64,000 nt of DNA from an uncultured Latescibacterota bacterium. GTDB lineage: Bacteria > Latescibacterota > UBA2968. The notes beneath the pieces were generated by a model. The model saw nothing but the letters and a program-made list of their open reading frames with translations, was not told the DNA's origin and did not search any database. Made by a program: the position numbers and the translations under genes. Below, piece after piece: positions 2,099 through 17,113 of this stretch. The stretch spans positions 1,287,339-1,351,338 of the forward strand of contig OX638329.1 in the NCBI GenBank assembly GCA_951812755.1, written 5' to 3'. Within the stretch, counting starts at the first letter, position 1. Each line of letters begins with the position of its first letter.

Positions 2099-5000
2099 TC
2101 ACCTAACCACCACAGTTCTCCCCGTCACAACCGCTCTGCTCGCATGATTGTACATCGCCTCAACCAGCGTAGGCGGCAAGGTGAATGTGCCAACAGTGAC
2201 GGCATTGAGCTTTACGACAAAGTCCCGCGTGAATCCCGGCCCCGCGGGCGTAATGTCAAAAAAATAGGTCACGCGGTCGTCTCGGATATCGAAATACGTC
2301 TCGTGGCCCAAATGCAATTTAGAAGTCCACCTCGGCATTGGCGCACCCGACAAGCGCGTATTTTCGATTTCCCAACCCGAAGGCAACAACTGTGTCAACG
2401 CCATCTCGCGGAGATACGCGGCAGAGGTATTTCTCACGCGGAAATGTCCCCAAAAAGTCGCCCCCTGTTTGAGCGTATCCGGATACACGGGAAAGCCATT
2501 GTCATCGCGCCAGCGCACGTCGAGTTGCAAATTGCGAGATTCGGCCACCGCATCGGCATTGAGCGGCACGCCCGACCACGCGAGGGTTGCAAATGCCCGC
2601 GTCACCGTACTCTCGGCATTGAGCTGCACGCGAACAGATTGTCCAAATCCAGATTCGATATCGACATTGTAAAAACGCGAATCCGTATCAAACGGCACGA
2701 CCTCCCCGCCGGGCAATGTCACCGAACCCGTCAAACGCAGCGGTTGATCTCCTTCAGTCGCCCGAATATGCTTGCCCAATGCCAGCAGCGCGAAACTACT
2801 CGTCTGTGTCGAATACCACCTGTCCGACGCCAGTGCCAGCGCGATTTCATCAACCAGAGGATCGGCTTCTTCCCAGCGTTGAAAATCGATCATCGCCCCC
2901 AAAATCATCGTGCGGTCTCTCAGTGCAGACCCAAAGGTATGTTCCCACCTCTTGTCCTGAGTTGCAAGCGTCCCCGCGTTCCTGAGAATCTCATCAGCTA
3001 TCGCAGAACTGCCCGCGCGGTGATACGCCGATGCCAGCAACCATTTCTCCACATTCGTCATATCCCGCAAACTGCTTTCCTTCAGTAAATTCATCGCCCC
3101 CAGCGCGGGCTGATTTGCCAGCGCGAGCAAATAAACGCGATAGGTTCGGATCATGAGATCATCGCGCGTGGTCAAAGCGCGAGACTGCTCGTATTGCACC
3201 CAGCTTTCAAACAAATCGTCGGGCACATAATAACCGAGGGCATTGGCCTCAATCAAAAAATGCCCGGCATACAGCGTGCCCCATATCGATGGCTTAGACC
3301 GCCCCGGCCAATAACTGAGTGCGCCGGACGACAGCCGAAATCGGCGCAACCGCTGAATCGCAGCATTGATATGCTCGTCGATCTCCCGCGCAATCGCATT
3401 CGATTGATCCGATACGATGAGAATGTCCTTGAGATAAAGCTGTGGAAACGCCGCCGACACCACTTGCTCCACACAACCGTAGGGATATTGCACCAGCCAA
3501 AGCACGCGATTGTCCAATTTCATATTCGGGCGCGTGTGCAGGGTGAGACGTGCGCGATTGGAACCGGGAATGCCCCGGTCGGGAATGGGGAGAACAACCG
3601 CATCTCCCGGTCGTATCTCCCGCGTCTCATCGGCACTGATGCGGGGCGACGACGGTGAAATAGTCAGATCCGTGGTATGCGTGGCAATCACATCGCCCGC
3701 AGTCGCAGTAATCACAACGCGCGCATCTCCAATTGCATTGGGCACCGCACACATAAATAGCACATCTTCTTCACCGACTTTTTGAAACACAATGGTATCC
3801 CGCGTCTGCCCATCGACATTGAGTAACCCCTCTGTACTGATCGCCACATCAACAGGCCCCAAACTATCTCTCATGGCAAATACAGTAGCTGGAACAGCAA
3901 TGTGATCGCCGGGGCGCAACACGCGCGGCAAAGTGGGCAAAACCATCAAATCCGTTTTCACGGGCACTGTTTTTTCCGCGCTACCATAAGCATTGCCCCG
4001 CGCTGCCACAGCCATGATGCGCACCGAACCGACGTAATTGGGCATCACAAAAGAAACCACAGCGCGCCCCTGGTCGTCGGTAGCAATCGGACCTTCAAAA
4101 AGCGATACAGACTTAAAACGCTGTTTTTGCTCTTCGGGGAGCCTATCGCGCCGATAAGCAGCCAGGGCGGCATCGCCACCTATCGCAAAGGTCTTAAACA
4201 CATCGCCGATATTGACACCTATAACCTGCCCAAACAAATCGGAAATATGCAGCCCCAAACGCAACTTGCCGAAAAACGCGCGCCATGGATCGGGCGTGGA
4301 AAATTGCGTGATATCCAGCAAACCCTCATCTACAACTGACAGCGTCAACTGCGCGGGTTTTCCATCATCCGTTTGCACGACAACCTCAAAAGAATCGTCG
4401 GGTTTGAGTTCATCGGGCGCAGTCAGCGTGAGATCGAGCCGCGTATTTGGATCAACCACGCGCAAAGGCACAATCCCATACATCCGCAACGGGCGATCAT
4501 TGGCCGTCTGTCTGTGCGGCTGAATGACGGATATCGTCACGTACGCATTCGGTGCCATATCTGCTGTAATGGGAATCTCGACTTGCGCGGTATTTCTCGT
4601 CCGCGGCGTATGCCACCGCGAATGCACCACATTTCCACCGCGCGACACAGTCACCAGTACAGACGACGTATCGGGCACGGGAAAAGACACCACAGCTTTT
4701 TCACCCGGCGCGTAATTTTCGCGGTCTGTCTTGAGCACCAGTGCGCCAGCATCTCGCCCACTTGCGGGCAAACTGCCCCAGGGATACGCGCGGATAAAAA
4801 GTGACGCCTTATGCCCATCCTCATCCGCCACCTCGATCAAATACTCTCCTTTTTTTTCAGGCTTAAACGCAACTGGCACCGGGCGATCTTGAGAAATAAT
4901 CGATGTTTCGAGAATCTTCTTCGTACTAAAATCCCGCTTAAAACGCAGGCGAAACTGATCCCTCGAATCGTATTCCCACCACCAGTAATTCTCATTGTGA

Positions 5001-7591
5001 AAAACGCGATACATCAACGTGCGTCCAGACGCGGCCTCCCCATCGGGCGTCACTGCAACAACGGGCACCTCAAGAGAGGCATTGATGCGCGTAAAACCGT
5101 AATCCAGGTCTGGCTTGTGCAAGCCCACATAAACCTCAAACGGATCGATGTGTACCGTGTGCGCTGTGCTATTGGGTCGCCCCCCTTTTTCGAGCACGCG
5201 AGCGCGCAATACCGCAGACAGGCGTGAAGGTGCTTCGCTCAAAGAAGGAAGCTGCCACGACACAGCAGCCTTGCCCTCCTCGTCCAGAGCACCCGTAAAA
5301 ATATTGGTAGTAATCGGCTTGAATTGAACCGCCTGATTGACAAACGAAAAACCCTCAAATTTGGGAAATACAGGCGGAGAACTGCGCAGCGTAACATCGA
5401 CACTGGCTTTTAAGCCCGCCGCTGGATTGCCAAATAAATACGCACTCCTCAGATCTGCTTTCAACACGCGATCCCGCTCTGCAAGTTGCGGATCGAGAAA
5501 GACTTTAAGGCGAAAAGGCACAATGGTTTCGACCTTGACCCTGTGATTAAACTTGCGGCTACCCACGTCAATTTCAGCGCGCCAGTTGCCCGTTGGCGCG
5601 TCGGCCGAAGTCGATAAATCAAAGGTGTAAAATCCATCTTTTCCCTCGCGATTGGTCTGCGTGAGCACGCGCTGTCCCAATGGATTGTAAAACGCGAGCG
5701 AGACCGGATGCCCGTCTGGAAACGTGTGGTTGTGATTTCGCACAATCGCCGATAGATGAATATCATCGCCGGGCCGATAAACCCCGCGCTCCGTGTAAAA
5801 AAACGCCCGAATACCATCGGGTGCAGGGTCTTGTCCTCCCGTATCAAAAGTCGATAGATTCCACGCCATATCCCCCGATTTGACAAAACTGCGCTGCCCA
5901 TCTTTCTCGGCTTCGATATAAAAAACATCTGATTTTACAGGACTAAAATCCGCCAGGCCGTTTCGATCTGTAACTTTTTGTTCCACAACCTGATTCTGGT
6001 ATGTGCGCAGGGTTATGGTGACACCGGACAATGGCCGCGCATCTTCCAAATGGGTGGCATAAACGAGATGCCGCTCGTGCGTCTTTTGATGCATAAGACC
6101 GATATCGCTGACCACCACCGGCTTATAGATGCGCCCGTGCTGATAGACATAACCGCGCGAATAGGGATTGTTAAAATAATCAGTCCCGCGGTACCGTCTG
6201 CGTTGTTGCCGCGCCTCTGCCGCTTCCACAGGGTCTCCGTAGAGCATATCCTCTGCCCCAAAAGTGAGCCCGATCAAATAAAGCCCCTTCTCGTCTTTGG
6301 AAATCAGATCGTTCAAATCGAGTTCGTGTTGCAACCACACATTTTTTTGGTTGCCAATATCCAGTGTGGTATCTGCCACTGTCACGCCCACGCGCCGAAT
6401 CTGATAAGAGGAAAATACTCGCGTGCGATCCCGCGCCCCATCCACCCCTTGAATTTGCAAGAACTGCCCCAGATTCGATTCAAAAACTTTATCGATCTTG
6501 AGACGAACGCGCGACACATTTACCGTCTGAAACCGGATTTTTCGATTGCCAGAAGTGGGCAAAAACACACCGTCACGCGCAAAACGCATGCGGGGCTTGA
6601 TATCGTCAAAAGCCACCGTCTCTGTACGCGGTTGTGCCAGTGCGATGCCCCAGCGACTGCGAACCCCCGGATGTACTGTCAACGCATAACTCTGTCCGTG
6701 CTGAAAATCGCCCACAACACTCACTGTTTTGCCAAGCGCGTTGAGCTGAAGCTGTTGCGGTGGGTCGGCAGTGATTAACCCCGCGATATCCTGACCAAAA
6801 TCGAGATCATCTGAAAAAATAATACTTACGCTCGGGCGGTCTCGGTCCGTGTGTTTTTCAATCTCGACAACGGAAAATGCCGATAAAGGAGGAAGCACCC
6901 ATGTATTGTCGTAGTCTTGCGAGAGTTCCAAATCTGTTCGATCAATATGCATCGCGAGTTCCTGGGACTCTCTCGTGCGCGTAATCTCGGCACTCGTAAA
7001 ATCGTGCGTCTTGCCATCTGATAACACACGCCAATGGAGTGCAAGCCGCTGATCTCCCAGACGCAACGCCACCGCATCACTCACAGCCGAAGAATCCGCG
7101 CGTTCGTTAAAGCTAATCTGACCGCTAAAAACCAGACGCTGCGGATCGTTCGCATCGGGCAACTCAAAATCTGCCTCGAGTGCGACGAGTTCCCGTCCCG
7201 CGACCTCAAACTGGATGATGAGCGGCTTCAGATCTTTGTGCTGGGGAAACAAATCGGCTATGCTGAGCTCGCCGCTATAGACCGTGCGCAATGTCAACGG
7301 TGCGTTTGGCTTGAAAACAAGCGTACGCACATCTTCCCATGTCGCCAAACCGTCAATAGATGGAATAAAGCGAAACACGCGCGTTCGCAACACCTGCCCA
7401 ACCTGACTTTTACCGATAACAGGCGATACAAAGCGCACGCGAATCGGATCAGTCGATGTGAGCACACCCTCGCTCACATGGCTCACCATACGCGCCGTCT
7501 CCATAGGATAGGATTGCGGTGCGTCTTCGGGCGACTTTTTGCTACACGCAAACAGCGTCAGCAACACAAGGAGAGAAATACGGTATGACAT
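2099..7591 (-). CDS. Bacterial alpha-2-macroglobulin family lipoprotein
   Basis: Giant periplasmic protease trap, 1830 residues. The start is set at 7591, not further upstream, because AGGAGG lies just before that ATG and a signal peptide with lipobox LFAC (Cys16) follows. The thioester motif GCVEQ lies near residue 1372, so this is a thioester-bearing member that should covalently capture proteases after bait-region cleavage. Repeated beta-rich macroglobulin domains fill the N-terminal two thirds, and alpha-helical thioester and receptor-type domains follow. It is somewhat longer than E. coli YfhM (about 1650 residues). Downstream pbpC gives the usual partner: A2M is thought to guard the periplasm once the wall is breached while PBP1C repairs it. 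Upstream are two membrane CutA-like genes, which are not standard partners. Confidence 0.95.
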   Translation of the reverse strand: MSYRISLLVLLTLFACSKKSPEDAPQSYPMETARMVSHVSEGVLTSTDPIRVRFVSPVIGKSQVGQVLRTRVFRFIPSIDGLATWEDVRTLVFKPNAPLTLRTVYSGELSIADLFPQHKDLKPLIIQFEVAGRELVALEADFELPDANDPQRLVFSGQISFNERADSSAVSDAVALRLGDQRLALHWRVLSDGKTHDFTSAEITRTRESQELAMHIDRTDLELSQDYDNTWVLPPLSAFSVVEIEKHTDRDRPSVSIIFSDDLDFGQDIAGLITADPPQQLQLNALGKTVSVVGDFQHGQSYALTVHPGVRSRWGIALAQPRTETVAFDDIKPRMRFARDGVFLPTSGNRKIRFQTVNVSRVRLKIDKVFESNLGQFLQIQGVDGARDRTRVFSSYQIRRVGVTVADTTLDIGNQKNVWLQHELDLNDLISKDEKGLYLIGLTFGAEDMLYGDPVEAAEARQQRRRYRGTDYFNNPYSRGYVYQHGRIYKPVVVSDIGLMHQKTHERHLVYATHLEDARPLSGVTITLRTYQNQVVEQKVTDRNGLADFSPVKSDVFYIEAEKDGQRSFVKSGDMAWNLSTFDTGGQDPAPDGIRAFFYTERGVYRPGDDIHLSAIVRNHNHTFPDGHPVSLAFYNPLGQRVLTQTNREGKDGFYTFDLSTSADAPTGNWRAEIDVGSRKFNHRVKVETIVPFRLKVFLDPQLAERDRVLKADLRSAYLFGNPAAGLKASVDVTLRSSPPVFPKFEGFSFVNQAVQFKPITTNIFTGALDEEGKAAVSWQLPSLSEAPSRLSAVLRARVLEKGGRPNSTAHTVHIDPFEVYVGLHKPDLDYGFTRINASLEVPVVAVTPDGEAASGRTLMYRVFHNENYWWWEYDSRDQFRLRFKRDFSTKKILETSIISQDRPVPVAFKPEKKGEYLIEVADEDGHKASLFIRAYPWGSLPASGRDAGALVLKTDRENYAPGEKAVVSFPVPDTSSVLVTVSRGGNVVHSRWHTPRTRNTAQVEIPITADMAPNAYVTISVIQPHRQTANDRPLRMYGIVPLRVVDPNTRLDLTLTAPDELKPDDSFEVVVQTDDGKPAQLTLSVVDEGLLDITQFSTPDPWRAFFGKLRLGLHISDLFGQVIGVNIGDVFKTFAIGGDAALAAYRRDRLPEEQKQRFKSVSLFEGPIATDDQGRAVVSFVMPNYVGSVRIMAVAARGNAYGSAEKTVPVKTDLMVLPTLPRVLRPGDHIAVPATVFAMRDSLGPVDVAISTEGLLNVDGQTRDTIVFQKVGEEDVLFMCAVPNAIGDARVVITATAGDVIATHTTDLTISPSSPRISADETREIRPGDAVVLPIPDRGIPGSNRARLTLHTRPNMKLDNRVLWLVQYPYGCVEQVVSAAFPQLYLKDILIVSDQSNAIAREIDEHINAAIQRLRRFRLSSGALSYWPGRSKPSIWGTLYAGHFLIEANALGYYVPDDLFESWVQYEQSRALTTRDDLMIRTYRVYLLALANQPALGAMNLLKESSLRDMTNVEKWLLASAYHRAGSSAIADEILRNAGTLATQDKRWEHTFGSALRDRTMILGAMIDFQRWEEADPLVDEIALALASDRWYSTQTSSFALLALGKHIRATEGDQPLRLTGSVTLPGGEVVPFDTDSRFYNVDIESGFGQSVRVQLNAESTVTRAFATLAWSGVPLNADAVAESRNLQLDVRWRDDNGFPVYPDTLKQGATFWGHFRVRNTSAAYLREMALTQLLPSGWEIENTRLSGAPMPRWTSKLHLGHETYFDIRDDRVTYFFDITPAGPGFTRDFVVKLNAVTVGTFTLPPTLVEAMYNHASRAVVTGRTVVVR

Positions 7592-7766: not shown

Positions 7767-8444
7767 CTACCCTCTCCCATCAGCCGCATCGGCAATCCAC
7801 GTCAAATAGGACCTGTGTCCGTGCGACACGGGAAATGACATAGACATATTCCTCAACCGTTTTTTCAGTGATCTCAAGCGACCCTTTACAGTCATCACAA
7901 ATAGCACGATATCTCCATCCCGATTCGGCGACAAAAAATACTGCGAAAAAACATCCACCCGCGCAGCCAGCCGCTCGGCAACAAGCGCGTTCCCAACGCG
8001 ACTTGCCTCCGCCTCAGATGGCATGGGAAGAGCGAGAATATAAGGCGCAGCTCGCAACCCACCCTGAACCGTGACATTGAGATCATCTTTACCCAGACGC
8101 CGTGCCACATCGATCTTTCGCACAACCGTATGCACCACAAATAACACCAGACAAATCATCACGCCAATAGCAACGTGTTTCATCAGCCCGCTGAAAAACG
8201 CCCCTTGCTCCCGATCCTCCTCCTGAAAAAACGCATGCTGAAAACGCCCATCCGACTCCGCAGCCAACTTTCTCGCAATAACGCGCACCTGTGCATTCGC
8301 CACGGGTGGCAACGGCTTCACCCGCTCGGAACTGTACAGCGAGCGAACCATCTCGCGCGCAATACGCGAGGCATCCTCATCCACAGCCGCTACGGATGCA
8401 GCCGAACAAAACCCAAATAGAATGACGATCCAGACTTTTAACAT
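7767..8444 (-). CDS. Membrane-anchored protein with divergent CutA-like domain
   Basis: 225 residues. A signal peptide (1-20) is followed by a short helical, probably periplasmic, region (25-85), one transmembrane helix (about 89-107) and a cytoplasmic C-terminal domain (about 134-210). That domain has the order and spacing of CutA1: a first strand (ILALPMP), a helix with GNALVAERLAARV, then strands and a helix with KGRLRSLKKRL. The CutA assignment rests mainly on its tandem paralogue at 8548-9195, which matches better. A good ribosome binding site (AAAGGAT) precedes the ATG. It is in the operon of the A2M and PBP1C genes. Soluble CutA is a trimer linked to divalent-cation tolerance; what a membrane-tethered form does is unknown. 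Confidence 0.6.
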   Translation of the reverse strand: MLKVWIVILFGFCSAASVAAVDEDASRIAREMVRSLYSSERVKPLPPVANAQVRVIARKLAAESDGRFQHAFFQEEDREQGAFFSGLMKHVAIGVMICLVLFVVHTVVRKIDVARRLGKDDLNVTVQGGLRAAPYILALPMPSEAEASRVGNALVAERLAARVDVFSQYFLSPNRDGDIVLFVMTVKGRLRSLKKRLRNMSMSFPVSHGHRSYLTWIADAADGRG

Positions 8445-8454
8445 GCTATTGACA

Positions 8455-8547
8455 TCCTTTCACGGGCGGGCACAGGGGCACCGCCCCTACATTCTTTCGT
8501 CTCACATCTTGTATCTTTGTGTCTTTGCGTCTTCGTGTGAGGCTCTC
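8455..8547. repeat. Short intergenic repeat stretch
   Basis: This gap between the two CutA-like genes holds a GC-rich, partly palindromic stretch (ACAGGGGCACCGCCCCTAC) and then a T-rich TTTGTGTCTTTGCGTC-type stretch. Both are of a kind commonly scattered between genes in such genomes. No gene is visible in it. Confidence 0.4.
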
Positions 8548-9195
8548 TCACACCTCACGTATCACAACGAGCTCTGGCGTCTTGCCCTCGCCCAATTCCT
8601 CTGCGCGGCCAATCAAATGGCTGAGTTGCGCCCGCGTCGTCTTCAAAAAAACCATCGCCTCCGCAGCTTCTCGCACCCCATCCTCTCTACGATAAATTGA
8701 ACGGATACTCGGTGCAACAGTTCCGCCCGACGCCAAATTTTCTTCGACAAGAACCTTGCCGAGTTTTTGCGCCCGCGCTTCTGTGCGCATCGCAATCAAC
8801 ACCCCCAGAGAATCATCTCCCGACTCGGCACCCACTCCCCTTCTAATCACACGGAAAATCGCCCACAAAACCAGCAGCGCAATCAGAACAGCGATCCCTT
8901 TGGCAACCTGGCTCGCGATATTCCGAATCGACGCATCTCTTTCCCTGCGCACCTCTTCCAACCGCTGTTTTTGTTCGTCGAGAAATACCACATCCTCTGC
9001 CAATTGTGCGGTCATGCGCTCGACCCATGCAACCTGCTCTGCCGTCAGAGAATCCCCCTCTGCCAAAACCGCCCGCGCTACATGTCGCGCAATACTCTCA
9101 AGCCGTTCCACATTCACCTGTCCCTCAGCGGGCATACTCATAATAATGAACAGAACGATAAGCGCACCCAACCCAAAGATATGTCGATATCTCAT
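8548..9195 (-). CDS. Membrane-anchored CutA-domain protein
   Basis: 215 residues, first gene of the envelope operon. The start is placed at 9195, where AGGGGAAG precedes the ATG and a hydrophobic signal segment (residues 6-22) begins. A charged coiled-coil-like helix spans about 60-95, a transmembrane helix about 100-116, and a C-terminal domain 129-215. The last reads as CutA1: GKVLVEENLASGGTV, then IRSIYRREDGV, then AMVFLKTTRAQL, ending in a TPELVVI strand. That is the usual CutA strand-helix order with the SIYRWEG-like core, though the family's W is replaced by R. The architecture (signal, coiled coil, membrane helix, cytoplasmic CutA) is duplicated in the next gene. A link to metal sensing or to trimeric assembly under the membrane is inference. 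Confidence 0.72.
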   Translation of the reverse strand: MRYRHIFGLGALIVLFIIMSMPAEGQVNVERLESIARHVARAVLAEGDSLTAEQVAWVERMTAQLAEDVVFLDEQKQRLEEVRRERDASIRNIASQVAKGIAVLIALLVLWAIFRVIRRGVGAESGDDSLGVLIAMRTEARAQKLGKVLVEENLASGGTVAPSIRSIYRREDGVREAAEAMVFLKTTRAQLSHLIGRAEELGEGKTPELVVIREV

Positions 9196-9297
9196 AAAAT
9201 GATCTTCCCCTGTCAAATTTTCCTTGTTTTTGTCTCTTATTTTAGCAATATAGGACACAGAAATGCTACGTGCAAGAGGCTGACGAATTAAAAATTA

Positions 9298-9396
9298 AAA
9301 ATTGGGGGTAGGCGACCAAGAAGGATCGTCCCTACATTATGGACGGGCGAAAAATTTTTCGCCCCTACTTCACACTTCACACTTCACACTTCACAA
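9298..9396. repeat. Palindromic repeat and CACTTCA microsatellite
   Basis: A palindrome (GGGCGAAAAATTTTTCGCCC) at about 9343-9363 is followed by four tandem copies of a CACTTCA-type unit at about 9368-9395, directly abutting the next ATG. No ribosome binding site can be recognised there. Confidence 0.55.
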
Positions 9397-10491
9397 ATGA
9401 CACCCGAACAACTCGGTTTTGATTCGCAGAAACTCGACCGCGCCCGTCAAGTATTACAACACCATGTGCATACGCGCACCACCCCCGGTGCCGTCGGTCT
9501 CGTCCTGCGCCGCGCTGGCATCGTCATCTGCTGGCCTGTGGGTCACCACACCTATCAACCCAACGCTACACCCGTGCAAATCAACACCCTCTACGACCTC
9601 GCTTCTGTCACCAAAGTCATCGCCACCACAACACTCTGCATGTTATTTGTCGATAAAGATCGTCTCAACCTCGACGCGCCCGTGCAATTTTATGTACCCT
9701 CCTTCACAGGAAAAAACAAAAATCGCGTCACAATTCGGCATCTGCTCGCCCATTGCAGCGGCTTGCCCGCACATGTTCACCTGTACGAAAACCAACGCTC
9801 AACGTATGATATTGACATCCGCGATGCCATGTTCAACGCTGCCTGCCACCACCCCTTAATTTACGAACCCGGCACAGACACCGTTTACAGCGACCTGGGC
9901 TTTCTCACCCTGGGTAAAATCCTCGAAACCATCGGCGGCCAGCGTCTGGATCACCTCGTCAAACAGCACATATTCGAACCGCTCAAAATGAACGACACAG
10001 GGTACTGTCCACCACCCCATCTCAAACACCGCATTGCGCCCACTGAAAACGGCTCCGACTTGCGCGATCACCTCGTACACGGTGAAGTCCACGATGAAAA
10101 CGCCGCCGCAATGGGCGGTATCGCCTCCCACGCTGGCCTATTTTCCACAGCGCATGATCTGGCGAAGTGCCTGCTCGCCTGGCTCGGTGCAGGCATCTTT
10201 CCCAAACGGAGCATTCCACAATTTACCACCCGCGCCAACCTCGCGCCCAACAGCACCTGGGCACTCGGCTGGGACACGGTCTCATCCGACGAAAGTTCGA
10301 GCGGCCATTACTTTAGCGAACAATCCTTCGGCATCCTCGGTTTCACCGGCACATCCGTATGGGCGGACCCCATACGAGACCTCGGCGTCATTCTCCTCAC
10401 CAACCGCGTACATCCCACCCGCGAGAACAATCAAATTGCCCATCTCCGACCCGAATTTCACGACGCCATTTCCGAAGCCTTAATCGAATAG
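9397..10491 (+). CDS. Serine hydrolase of the beta-lactamase/EstB family
   Basis: 364 residues, no signal peptide, so likely cytoplasmic. The class C beta-lactamase/DD-peptidase fold is shown by SVTK (Ser nucleophile and Lys, about residues 70-73) and YSD near residue 165, the usual YxN-position variant for this esterase branch. The late motif usually seen as HTGFTG reads ILGFTG, so the third-motif His is missing. Family members hydrolyse esters, beta-lactams or D-amino-acid peptides; the substrate here cannot be told. The gene stands alone: it diverges from the CutA operon and converges on the PIN-toxin pair with a shared terminator. The start is the first ATG after a microsatellite and lacks a visible ribosome binding site. 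Confidence 0.88.
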   Translation: MTPEQLGFDSQKLDRARQVLQHHVHTRTTPGAVGLVLRRAGIVICWPVGHHTYQPNATPVQINTLYDLASVTKVIATTTLCMLFVDKDRLNLDAPVQFYVPSFTGKNKNRVTIRHLLAHCSGLPAHVHLYENQRSTYDIDIRDAMFNAACHHPLIYEPGTDTVYSDLGFLTLGKILETIGGQRLDHLVKQHIFEPLKMNDTGYCPPPHLKHRIAPTENGSDLRDHLVHGEVHDENAAAMGGIASHAGLFSTAHDLAKCLLAWLGAGIFPKRSIPQFTTRANLAPNSTWALGWDTVSSDESSSGHYFSEQSFGILGFTGTSVWADPIRDLGVILLTNRVHPTRENNQIAHLRPEFHDAISEALIE

Positions 10492-14467: not shown

Positions 14468-14506
14468 ATGAATTGGCCTGAGAGACGGCCAGTTGTAACC
14501 CCTCTA
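14468..14506. repeat. GTTACAACTG hairpin repeat between convergent genes
   Basis: Imperfect palindrome (TTGGCC and GGCCAG arms around CTGAGAGAC). It matches, in inverted orientation, the 39-bp insert inside the MITE at 27792-27830. It fills the 43-bp gap between the oxidoreductase and LRR stop codons and may act as the terminator for both. Confidence 0.6.
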
Positions 14507-17113
14507 TTCCGCAACATCGATGATGGCGATGCTCACCACAACACTCACCTGCCCACCGTTGTCATCAATCACGCGCACGATTGGAGAACACCAGTTCCGC
14601 TCCTCAAAATTATGTGTCTCTTTCGTCTCAAGCTGACCTGTATTCGCATCAATAGCAAAATACTCGGCATCCACACCCCACAGACTATACATAAGCGTAT
14701 CGCCATCGGCACCCGTCGCTGAGATCGGATCGCCTATGGGCTGTCCAGGTGGCGTGTTCTCCTCTAAGAAGCGCGTCACAGGAGGGGCTGACGTGAAAAC
14801 CGGCACCTGGATCACCACCTTGCCAAAGTTATCGACAAAGATCAGAAAATCCGGAATCCCTATCTCGTCATTACCGTCCAGATCGTATTTTGTCTCATAC
14901 CTCTCTTGGCCTTTCTTCAACCCAAACACATCGACAAAGAGCAAAAAGTCCGGGATATCTACTGTTCCATTCCCGTCAAAATCCGCAGAAGCCTCGCCAA
15001 CTGGTAAGTTAGGAGAAGACCCCTGTAAGGCAACGCCGAGGAACATCGGGATAGTATCAGACTGTCCCCCTCCCAATAGCTTAACCCGCACCAACCGTAT
15101 CTCTGTCTCTGATATCTCATCCATCGCGCGAAAGCGAAGCGTGCCCATAAGACCACTATCCACCCTTGTTTCACTATCGGATAACGTCATCCCAATATTC
15201 ACAAAATCCTTGCCAGAAAGCGCTGACGTGCCTGATAATACAGGACCCCGCTTAAATCCCTCGTAGGCCACCTGCGTTGCATCGTATTCAAAGCGAACGG
15301 AAAGATCATTGACAGAAATAGCTTTAAGACTTTTTCCGAAAATCTGGATAGACGCAATGCTATCAGGAGAAACAGAGAGAAAGGACATAAACTGATCTCC
15401 TTCTGATTCATCCATATCCAGAGAAAGGGAAAATCGGTCATTCGGAATAGGCGTGCTGGTCTGTACAGTGACCAATCCCGACCAATCGCCATCACCCGTA
15501 GAATTGCTCGCCCGTATCTGCACCTCGTATTCCGTATCGGGGCTTAGCCGGGTGATGATCGCTCTTGTCCCGATGACATTCTGTGGACCCTCTATAAAGT
15601 CTCCTGTGCCGTCCTGTCGGTAGCGCAGGTCATAGCTCGAGACGACCGATCCTTCCGGAGCCTGCCAACTCATCCTCACACTGGTCGGTGCTGTCTCCAT
15701 CACCATAGGTGCAGAGGGTGGCGGTGGCGGCGGTGGTGGTGTTACTGGCGGCGGTGGTGGTGTTACTGGCGGTGATGGCGGTGATGGCGGTGGCTGCGGT
15801 GGCTGCGGTGGCTGCGGTGGTGGTGGTGTTACTGGCGGTGATGGTGTTACTGGCGGCGGTGGTGGTGTTACTGGCGGTGATGGCGGTGATGGCGGTGGCT
15901 GCGGTGGCTGCGGCGGTGGTGGTGGTGTTACTGGCGGTGGATCGGGAGGAACGATTGCGCTACATACTTCATCTGGCAGCGAAACGTCCAGGACCACAAC
16001 ACTCCGTCCTACCTCTCTCTGTTTGGCCTGCAGCCTGCACAGCGGCGACAAATCCTTGATTGAATTACGTCTGATATATAACTCCTCCAGACTGACCATG
16101 TCTTCGAGCGGCATCAGATCACTAACCTGCGTGGCAAGTATCGATAATCCCTGCAAATCCAGGTCTCTCAGTGGTTCAAGGCTACTGACATCATTGAAAT
16201 CAAGATTCATCCACTTTAGACTTTCTATGTCTTCGAGCGGGCTAAGGTCGCTAATTTTATTCGCAGGGGCGAGCAATTGAGTCAGTTTGAGGTCTGCGAT
16301 TGGGGTGAGGTCTCTAACTTCGTTCCCCTGGATTTTCAGTAACTCTAAACTGTGCAAGTTCTCAAGCGGCTCCAGGGAGCTTATGCTATTAAAACCGAGT
16401 GCCAGACTCCTCAACTTCGCCAGATTGGATAGCGGCATCAGGTCGCTGACACGGTTGCTATAGAGCCATAATTCACTTAAGTTTGCCAAATTGGATAGTG
16501 GCATCAGGTCGGCAACGTCATTATCACTCAGATCCAGGATCTGCAACTTAATCAGTCCCGCGAACGGCGTCAGATCGGTGATACTATTGTCGCCCAGATC
16601 CAAAGTCTCCAAATTCAGCAAATTCCGGAGAATCTCTACATTATCTATTCCACTGTCATGAAGGGATAGTACCTCCAGGCTCAGCATATTGCTGATTGGC
16701 TCAAGATAGGTTTCGTCTGATACTGTGATACGGAGAGATCTCAAAGACAGCTCTCTGATTGGTTCAAGGTTGTCAATCGCCCTTGAACGGTAAATTGTCA
16801 ACTCTTTTAAATTTCGTGCATACTCCAGTCCCGACAGATTGCTTATAGCGGGAGCAAACACCCTGGTCAATTCCAGCAATTTAGCTTCCGTCAGGTCAGC
16901 GTCGTTCTGCACGGAGAGAGCATCCTTTATCGCTTTTCTCAAGTTCACGTCCGGTATTGAAACGGCCTGTGCAGATACAATGTCGGGCCAATTTGCCAGG
17001 CACAATAGGACAAAAGAGAAGACAGCGTGGCGGACGGACCGCTGGTGCAGTTGTACACCGCCTGTACGCAGATGGACTCTTGTCCGCCGCCAGATTTTGA
17101 AAAACGGAAACAT
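14504..17113 (-). CDS. Secreted modular LRR-FnIII-cohesin-like-dockerin-like protein
   Basis: 869 residues. After a basic N-terminus and signal segment (about residues 29-49) come about a dozen 21-22-residue internalin-type leucine-rich repeats (about 60-370, for example LETLDLGDNSITDLTPF). A Pro-rich linker of PPPVTPPPPP-type repeats (about 390-465) follows. Next are one fibronectin type III domain (about 468-555), a cohesin-like beta domain (about 558-690), and paired Ca-binding loops of dockerin type (DFDGNGTVDIPDFLLF and DLDGNDEIGIPDFLIF, about 715-770). A cadherin-like domain ends the protein. Roles in adhesion or surface assembly fit the modules but are inference. No sortase or anchor motif is visible. 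The first 25 residues contain a segment (GGVQLHQ) encoded by a copy of the GGTGTACAACTG repeat, so the true start could lie further in. Confidence 0.85.
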   Translation of the reverse strand: MFPFFKIWRRTRVHLRTGGVQLHQRSVRHAVFSFVLLCLANWPDIVSAQAVSIPDVNLRKAIKDALSVQNDADLTEAKLLELTRVFAPAISNLSGLEYARNLKELTIYRSRAIDNLEPIRELSLRSLRITVSDETYLEPISNMLSLEVLSLHDSGIDNVEILRNLLNLETLDLGDNSITDLTPFAGLIKLQILDLSDNDVADLMPLSNLANLSELWLYSNRVSDLMPLSNLAKLRSLALGFNSISSLEPLENLHSLELLKIQGNEVRDLTPIADLKLTQLLAPANKISDLSPLEDIESLKWMNLDFNDVSSLEPLRDLDLQGLSILATQVSDLMPLEDMVSLEELYIRRNSIKDLSPLCRLQAKQREVGRSVVVLDVSLPDEVCSAIVPPDPPPVTPPPPPQPPQPPPSPPSPPVTPPPPPVTPSPPVTPPPPQPPQPPQPPPSPPSPPVTPPPPPVTPPPPPPPPSAPMVMETAPTSVRMSWQAPEGSVVSSYDLRYRQDGTGDFIEGPQNVIGTRAIITRLSPDTEYEVQIRASNSTGDGDWSGLVTVQTSTPIPNDRFSLSLDMDESEGDQFMSFLSVSPDSIASIQIFGKSLKAISVNDLSVRFEYDATQVAYEGFKRGPVLSGTSALSGKDFVNIGMTLSDSETRVDSGLMGTLRFRAMDEISETEIRLVRVKLLGGGQSDTIPMFLGVALQGSSPNLPVGEASADFDGNGTVDIPDFLLFVDVFGLKKGQERYETKYDLDGNDEIGIPDFLIFVDNFGKVVIQVPVFTSAPPVTRFLEENTPPGQPIGDPISATGADGDTLMYSLWGVDAEYFAIDANTGQLETKETHNFEERNWCSPIVRVIDDNGGQVSVVVSIAIIDVAE
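15712..15945. repeat. Triplet/minisatellite repeat encoding Pro-rich linker
   Basis: Tandem GGTGGC-type triplets with repeated units reading GGTGGTGTTACTGGCGG on the plus strand. Translated from the minus strand they give the PPPVTPPPPP linker of the LRR protein. Units differ in number and order, which points to slippage or recombination and probable length variation among relatives. Confidence 0.8.

Follow-up and report, generated by a model that had tools for sequence, protein, structure and literature searches.

Tandem, putatively membrane-anchored CutA proteins with a FliF-like membrane segment in an uncultured Latescibacterota bacterium

The window, that is, the whole stretch of 64,000 nucleotides analysed here (G000:C1:1287339–1351338, G000 being the source genome), carried two adjacent genes on the reverse strand, A (8548–9195, 215 amino acids) and B (7767–8444, 225 amino acids), each predicted to encode a membrane-anchored protein of the CutA family. 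Both ORFs were intact at these coordinates, as in the initial annotation. In gene A, a hydrophobic signal-peptide-like start (residues 1–25; 9121–9195) was followed by a helical stretch that is periplasmic by prediction (residues 26–82; 8950–9120), a membrane segment (residues 83–124; 8824–8949) and a CutA1 domain (residues 132–212; 8560–8802) from which the C-terminal YLxW helix was missing. The signal peptide was clearer in the orthologue from genome G025 (...NTQPAQAQ/E). Gene B likewise encoded a signal-peptide-like start and a helical stretch, then a membrane segment at residues ~90–109 (8118–8177) and a degenerate CutA1 domain at residues 138–219 (7788–8033), in which the strand-2 and HxY segments were shortened and the C-terminal SYLTWI helix was retained. 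A divergently oriented gene for a beta-lactamase-family serine hydrolase (9397–10491, forward strand) lay on one side of the pair. On the other side, as initially annotated, the same strand continued with genuine genes for a bacterial alpha-2-macroglobulin (A2M; 2099–7591) and PBP1C (pbpC; 3–1871, running off the window). The A2M comprised bMG domains, a bait region and a TED. Its start resembled that of a lipoprotein (LFAC), and its thioester-type motif (GCVEQ) appeared intact. Intergenic insertions at 8445–8547 and 9290–9396 contained short palindromes (AGGGGCACCGCCCCT; GGGCGAAAAATTTTTCGCCC), then CTAC and TTCACAC-type repeats; because the A–B gap was only ~4–10 bp in several relatives, these insertions resembled a mobile intergenic element. 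Elsewhere in the window, 14504–17113 (reverse strand) encoded a predicted secreted protein of 869 amino acids that combined leucine-rich repeats and long Pro-rich linkers with stretches resembling fibronectin-type, cohesin, dockerin and cadherin sequences.

Known bacterial CutA1 proteins are small soluble trimers. Profile comparison assigned the C-terminal domains of both A and B to this family: Pfam CutA1 (PF03091, curated cut-off 22.4 bits) matched residues 132–212 of A (E = 7.3e-13, 48.6 bits) and residues 138–219 of B (E = 2.7e-5, 24.3 bits), and phmmer searches of the PDB with A and B returned CutA structures (1nza/7l85; E ~1e-6 and 4e-4). The scores against the NCBIfam equivalogs for canonical CutA, NF041095 (28.4 and 15.6 bits against 120) and NF007930 (30.2 and 12.8 bits against 145), stayed below the cut-offs, so A and B are best regarded as divergent members. 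The full-length proteins were ~26% identical to each other, and their CutA domains were distantly related. A search of the whole source genome identified A and B as its only CutA genes and found no soluble CutA gene. A single scan of genome contigs with gene A returned only five close relatives, annotated as Candidatus Latescibacterota. Eight other genomes of the genus carried orthologues of A with 86%–93% identity, and the G038 orthologue was 65% identical. Across the genus, dN/dS was 0.21 (A) and 0.25 (B). Both are thus real genes under purifying selection. The predicted periplasmic parts were constrained as strongly as the CutA domains (0.14 and 0.20, respectively, in A; 0.13 and 0.27 in B). 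The proposal of a tandem, membrane-anchored, CutA-like pair was therefore borne out by the ORFs, the Pfam matches and the single membrane segment in each protein.

Structure prediction had been suggested as a check on the CutA fold. AlphaFold2 models built from only 12 aligned sequences were of low confidence (mean pLDDT 51.8 for A and 45.9 for B), and the order of elements in them was an N-terminal hydrophobic helix, further helices (in A at residues 29–45 and from residue 52 onward), a long membrane helix and a beta-alpha-beta-beta-alpha domain. When the low-confidence model of A was used as a Foldseek query, the first 20 matches were all CutA1 structures (probability 0.77–1.00, best E = 6e-3). 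The order of elements in these low-confidence models is the one expected for the ferredoxin-like fold of CutA1.

The membrane segment of A resembled a flagellar protein. In a search of 64 genomes of the phylum with gene A, residues 66–125 also matched ORFs of ~500 residues in three genomes (G019, G026 and G028). These ORFs encode FliF: PF08345 was present, and the neighbouring ORFs had the sizes expected of flagellar genes. In the reverse direction, a 49-residue query of the second transmembrane segment (TM2) of FliF retrieved FliF from whole genomes, then the A-type CutA of the order and then the B-type CutA of G019. The same query also returned a few ORFs from family f4 that were not CutA; most of those inspected were FliF-like. 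As this FliF TM2 query returned no ORF that looked FliO-like, FliO was not favoured as the anchor donor. Family f4 also encoded a FliF-like short protein of 187 amino acids (L121:1627–2190, reverse strand; also in G058:C127 and G044:C409), with an N-terminal hydrophobic helix, a stretch like FliF 'LSxxQVxxIxxLVxxSxxGL' and a FliF-type TM2. This protein was separate from full-length FliF and had no link to CutA, and the G058 copy contained two in-frame stops.

Because the shared segment is short (~35–45 residues), hydrophobic and diverged within the genus (49%–54% amino acid identity to FliF over 35 residues), the likeness could in principle reflect convergence of two hydrophobic helices, with CutA having gained an unrelated membrane anchor. 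Several comparisons make this extremely improbable. In shuffling tests that kept the composition of the hydrophobic core, Z was 6.8–7.9 for A of the source genome, about 10–13 for A of G019, G025 and G026, and about 4–6 (4.2–5.7) for the diverged A of G038. Within G026, the CutA anchor and the genome's own FliF shared 77% amino acid and 72% DNA identity over 35 codons (79% DNA identity over 90 nt by blast). The alignment with FliF TM2 was ungapped across the membrane helix and its flanks, and hhalign matched residues ~49–124 of A to the C-terminal region of FliF (probability 97.9%, E = 3.4e-13). The likeness was also specific. When 1346 ORFs containing hydrophobic stretches, taken from the examined loci, were ranked by similarity to a reference FliF TM2, scores of 62–157 were reached by A-type CutA, B of G019 and the FliF and FliF-like proteins of the class; the CutA of G018 scored 42 and the rest scored ≤ 33. 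More distant FliFs of the phylum reached 30–32, indicating that the anchor resembles the FliF of the class rather than FliF in general. Taken together, the searches, blastp, shuffles, hhalign and background ranking show that the membrane segment of gene A is homologous to FliF TM2 of the same lineage. In gene B, the FliF-likeness was clear only in the more distant orthologue of G019 (Z = 6–7.5). The B of the genus and of G025 showed no such resemblance under shuffling (Z ~1), and the B anchor of the genus gave a weak profile match to FliF (hhalign, E = 2e-5).

The similarity to FliF appeared to be confined to this segment. YscJ_FliF_C (PF08345) and RBM domains gave no match in the source genome, and the shared part is the TM2 segment alone. 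A PF08345 search of all 11 genus genomes and of G025 found no FliF; the flagellum otherwise seems to have been lost in the genus. The pre-membrane helical part of A alone had no significant match to FliF in profile comparison. A remnant of FliF RBM3 in the periplasmic part, suggested by a common 'LT-EQV' helix motif, was considered and rejected (E = 0.03 alone, not significant). Thus, A shares with FliF (the MS-ring protein; PF01514/PF08345) a segment at residues ~83–124 in the same inferred orientation, whereas it lacks the RBM and collar domains and the FliG-binding tail, lies at a non-flagellar locus and occurs in genomes without FliF. The C-terminus of FliF, beyond TM2, is cytoplasmic (PMC8092281). 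Together with the signal-peptide-like start and the single membrane segment, the homology to TM2 therefore suggests that the CutA domain is on the cytoplasmic side and the helical stretch in the periplasm.

The CutA domains themselves have diverged in opposite directions. In Shewanella CutA1, three aromatic residues of one subunit (Tyr45, Trp47 and Tyr81) interlock with two of the adjacent subunit (Tyr98 and Trp101; PMC3004244). The five positions, numbered as in that study, were located in the present sequences by the motifs Y45xW47, HxY81 and Y98LxW101. The soluble CutA proteins of the order retained all five aromatics, except for Phe at position 81 in G020, and A of G019 had Tyr45, Trp47, Tyr81, Phe98 and Trp101. 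This canonical cluster was incomplete in both A and B of the genus. The A proteins of the genus and of G025 retained Tyr45 and lacked the other four aromatics, as Trp47 and Tyr81 were replaced and the protein ended before the last helix. In all lineages, B lacked Tyr45, Trp47 and Tyr81. Tyr98 and Trp101 were retained by B of G019 and of most members of the genus, with His at position 98 in G025 and Tyr at position 101 in G038. A and B thus appear to have lost opposite halves of the CutA interface. A and B were always adjacent where both ends were assembled, and such opposite losses in adjacent paralogues would be expected of an A:B heteromer; the complementary losses, taken by themselves, suggest a membrane-tethered heteromer of this kind. 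The purifying selection on each gene and the distant relationship of the two CutA domains would also suit separate membrane-bound homo-oligomers that bind different ligands. Given the constant adjacency and the complementary way in which the two interface halves were lost, we consider separate homo-oligomers unlikely and favour the A:B heteromer.

Comparison across the order placed the CutA locus in a wider context. In nearly every examined genome of two families with sufficient assembly, the divergent beta-lactamase-family gene adjoined CutA, whether soluble (G020–G024, G027 and G028) or anchored, and genes named from their sequences as serine hydroxymethyltransferase-like and ROK-like recurred there, so that the locus was recognisable across the two families. 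In a tree of CutA domains, the A sequences formed one group (81/85, moderate support) and the B sequences another (94/92), with G019, a member of the other family, represented in both. Single-origin groups of this composition suggest, as the simplest reading, a single fusion and a single tandem duplication in an ancestor of the two families, with soluble CutA having survived or been regained in sister genera. A possible alternative is that FliF was captured independently in G019 and G026, as the anchors in these genomes were each nearer to their own FliF than to the other's CutA. In the CutA-domain tree, however, the sequences grouped by type (A or B), which makes a single capture before the duplication simpler. 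In G026, one anchored copy was visible and the contig ended there.

Genome G018, from another family, encoded a single CutA (L072:5392–5850, reverse strand) with all of the interface aromatics and an N-terminal membrane segment that showed weak similarity to FliF TM2 (Z = 3.9–4.8). The gene was located just downstream of disrupted-looking coding sequence resembling an RND pump and TolC. This neighbourhood and the historical link of E. coli cutA to copper tolerance (cited in PMC3004244) would fit a membrane-tethered metal-tolerance device, in which CutA helps to handle divalent metals, perhaps together with efflux pumps. However, the metal tolerance ascribed to CutA was disputed by Selim et al. 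(2021; cited in PMC8469502), none of the genes flanking the A/B pair was recognised as encoding a metal transporter, and the cysteine of the 'AAC' motif was missing from A and B of the genus. A metal-tolerance device is thus an unlikely explanation of the pair.

The initial annotation had gone further and proposed that the pair could relay envelope stress or metal signals to the A2M/PBP1C repair system. In such a relay, the periplasmic helices would sense damage and a cytoplasmic CutA trimer would control repair by A2M and PBP1C. Some features of the neighbourhood would accord with such a relay. The A2M (PF17973) and pbpC (PF06832) genes were found in 7 of the 11 genomes of the genus, and at four loci (L004–L007) the order A–B–A2M–pbpC was tight, with the A2M start codon, equipped with an AGGAGG site, ~10 bp past the stop of B (the B–A2M gap in the window was 175 bp). 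The four genes therefore plausibly form one operon in part of the genus, and co-expression of A and B with the cassette is plausible in that subclade. However, neither A2M nor pbpC was found in the whole genomes of G029, G035, G036, G038, G025, G026 and G019, all of which carried anchored CutA. G038 is a single-contig genome, and in G029, G035 and G036 the CutA locus ran straight into other genes. Conversely, the genomes of family f2 with A2M and pbpC (G020–G024) had a soluble CutA on a different contig. In a five-gene tree, the cassette-minus G029, G035 and G036 were nested within the cassette-plus members of the genus with moderate support, which points to loss of the cassette while A and B stayed. 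With seven relatives in which anchored CutA has no adjoining A2M, the relay found no support as a general explanation and is very unlikely. A functional dependence of the pair on A2M and PBP1C is not supported; the two genes are neighbours in part of the genus and not required partners, and gene content and phylogeny indicate that A and B arose in tandem and are independent of A2M and pbpC.

From these comparisons, we propose that a soluble CutA ancestor, encoded at this locus beside the divergent beta-lactamase-family gene, was joined to an export signal and to a copied membrane segment from the C-terminal part of FliF. The resulting protein would cross the inner membrane once, oriented like FliF TM2, so that the N-terminal helices lie on the periplasmic side and CutA on the cytoplasmic side. 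The fused gene would then have been duplicated in tandem and the copies would have diverged. Copy A would have lost the C-terminal helix but kept its FliF-like anchor and, at the interface, the tyrosine face of strand 2; copy B would have lost the strand-2/HxY face but kept the C-terminal Tyr/Trp helix. In its most likely working form, the pair would be a membrane-tethered, heteromeric, PII-like CutA trimer of A and B, which might act as a small-molecule-binding or adaptor platform at the inner face of the membrane. In the genus, the anchored pair would replace soluble CutA and would be independent of A2M/PBP1C. We regard this account as a whole, from the FliF-derived anchor through duplication and complementary losses to a membrane heteromer, as probable. 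More tentatively, the pair could be an obligate two-subunit, PII-like sensor held at the membrane by a domesticated MS-ring anchor, in which each subunit completes the interface of the other and the fusion has outlived the flagellum; we see this as a possible but rather doubtful extension.

Compared with CutA1 proteins such as those of E. coli (1naq), T. thermophilus (1nza) and Shewanella SIB1, A and B share the C-terminal domain by profile and the predicted order of elements (A also by Foldseek), whereas they add a signal-peptide-like start, a helical stretch and a membrane anchor, occur in tandem and show opposite interface losses. We know of no FliF-type segment or tandem degenerate pair in mammalian CUTA, which we take as an independent case. 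Like A and B, mammalian CUTA is a CutA1 protein implicated at membranes, as it has been tied to acetylcholinesterase processing and surface localisation (cited in PMC3004244). Within the literature searched, which covered the field in part, no report was found of a membrane-anchored bacterial CutA, of a CutA–FliF fusion or of a flagellar membrane segment put to use as a general-purpose anchor. CutA is among the most widespread small proteins. A lineage whose sole CutA appears to have been forced onto the membrane as two complementary subunits would narrow down where CutA works, and the split pair could offer a chance to test the role of CutA trimer interfaces. The locus also illustrates how a membrane segment of flagellar origin can serve as a generic anchor and persist where FliF is no longer found.
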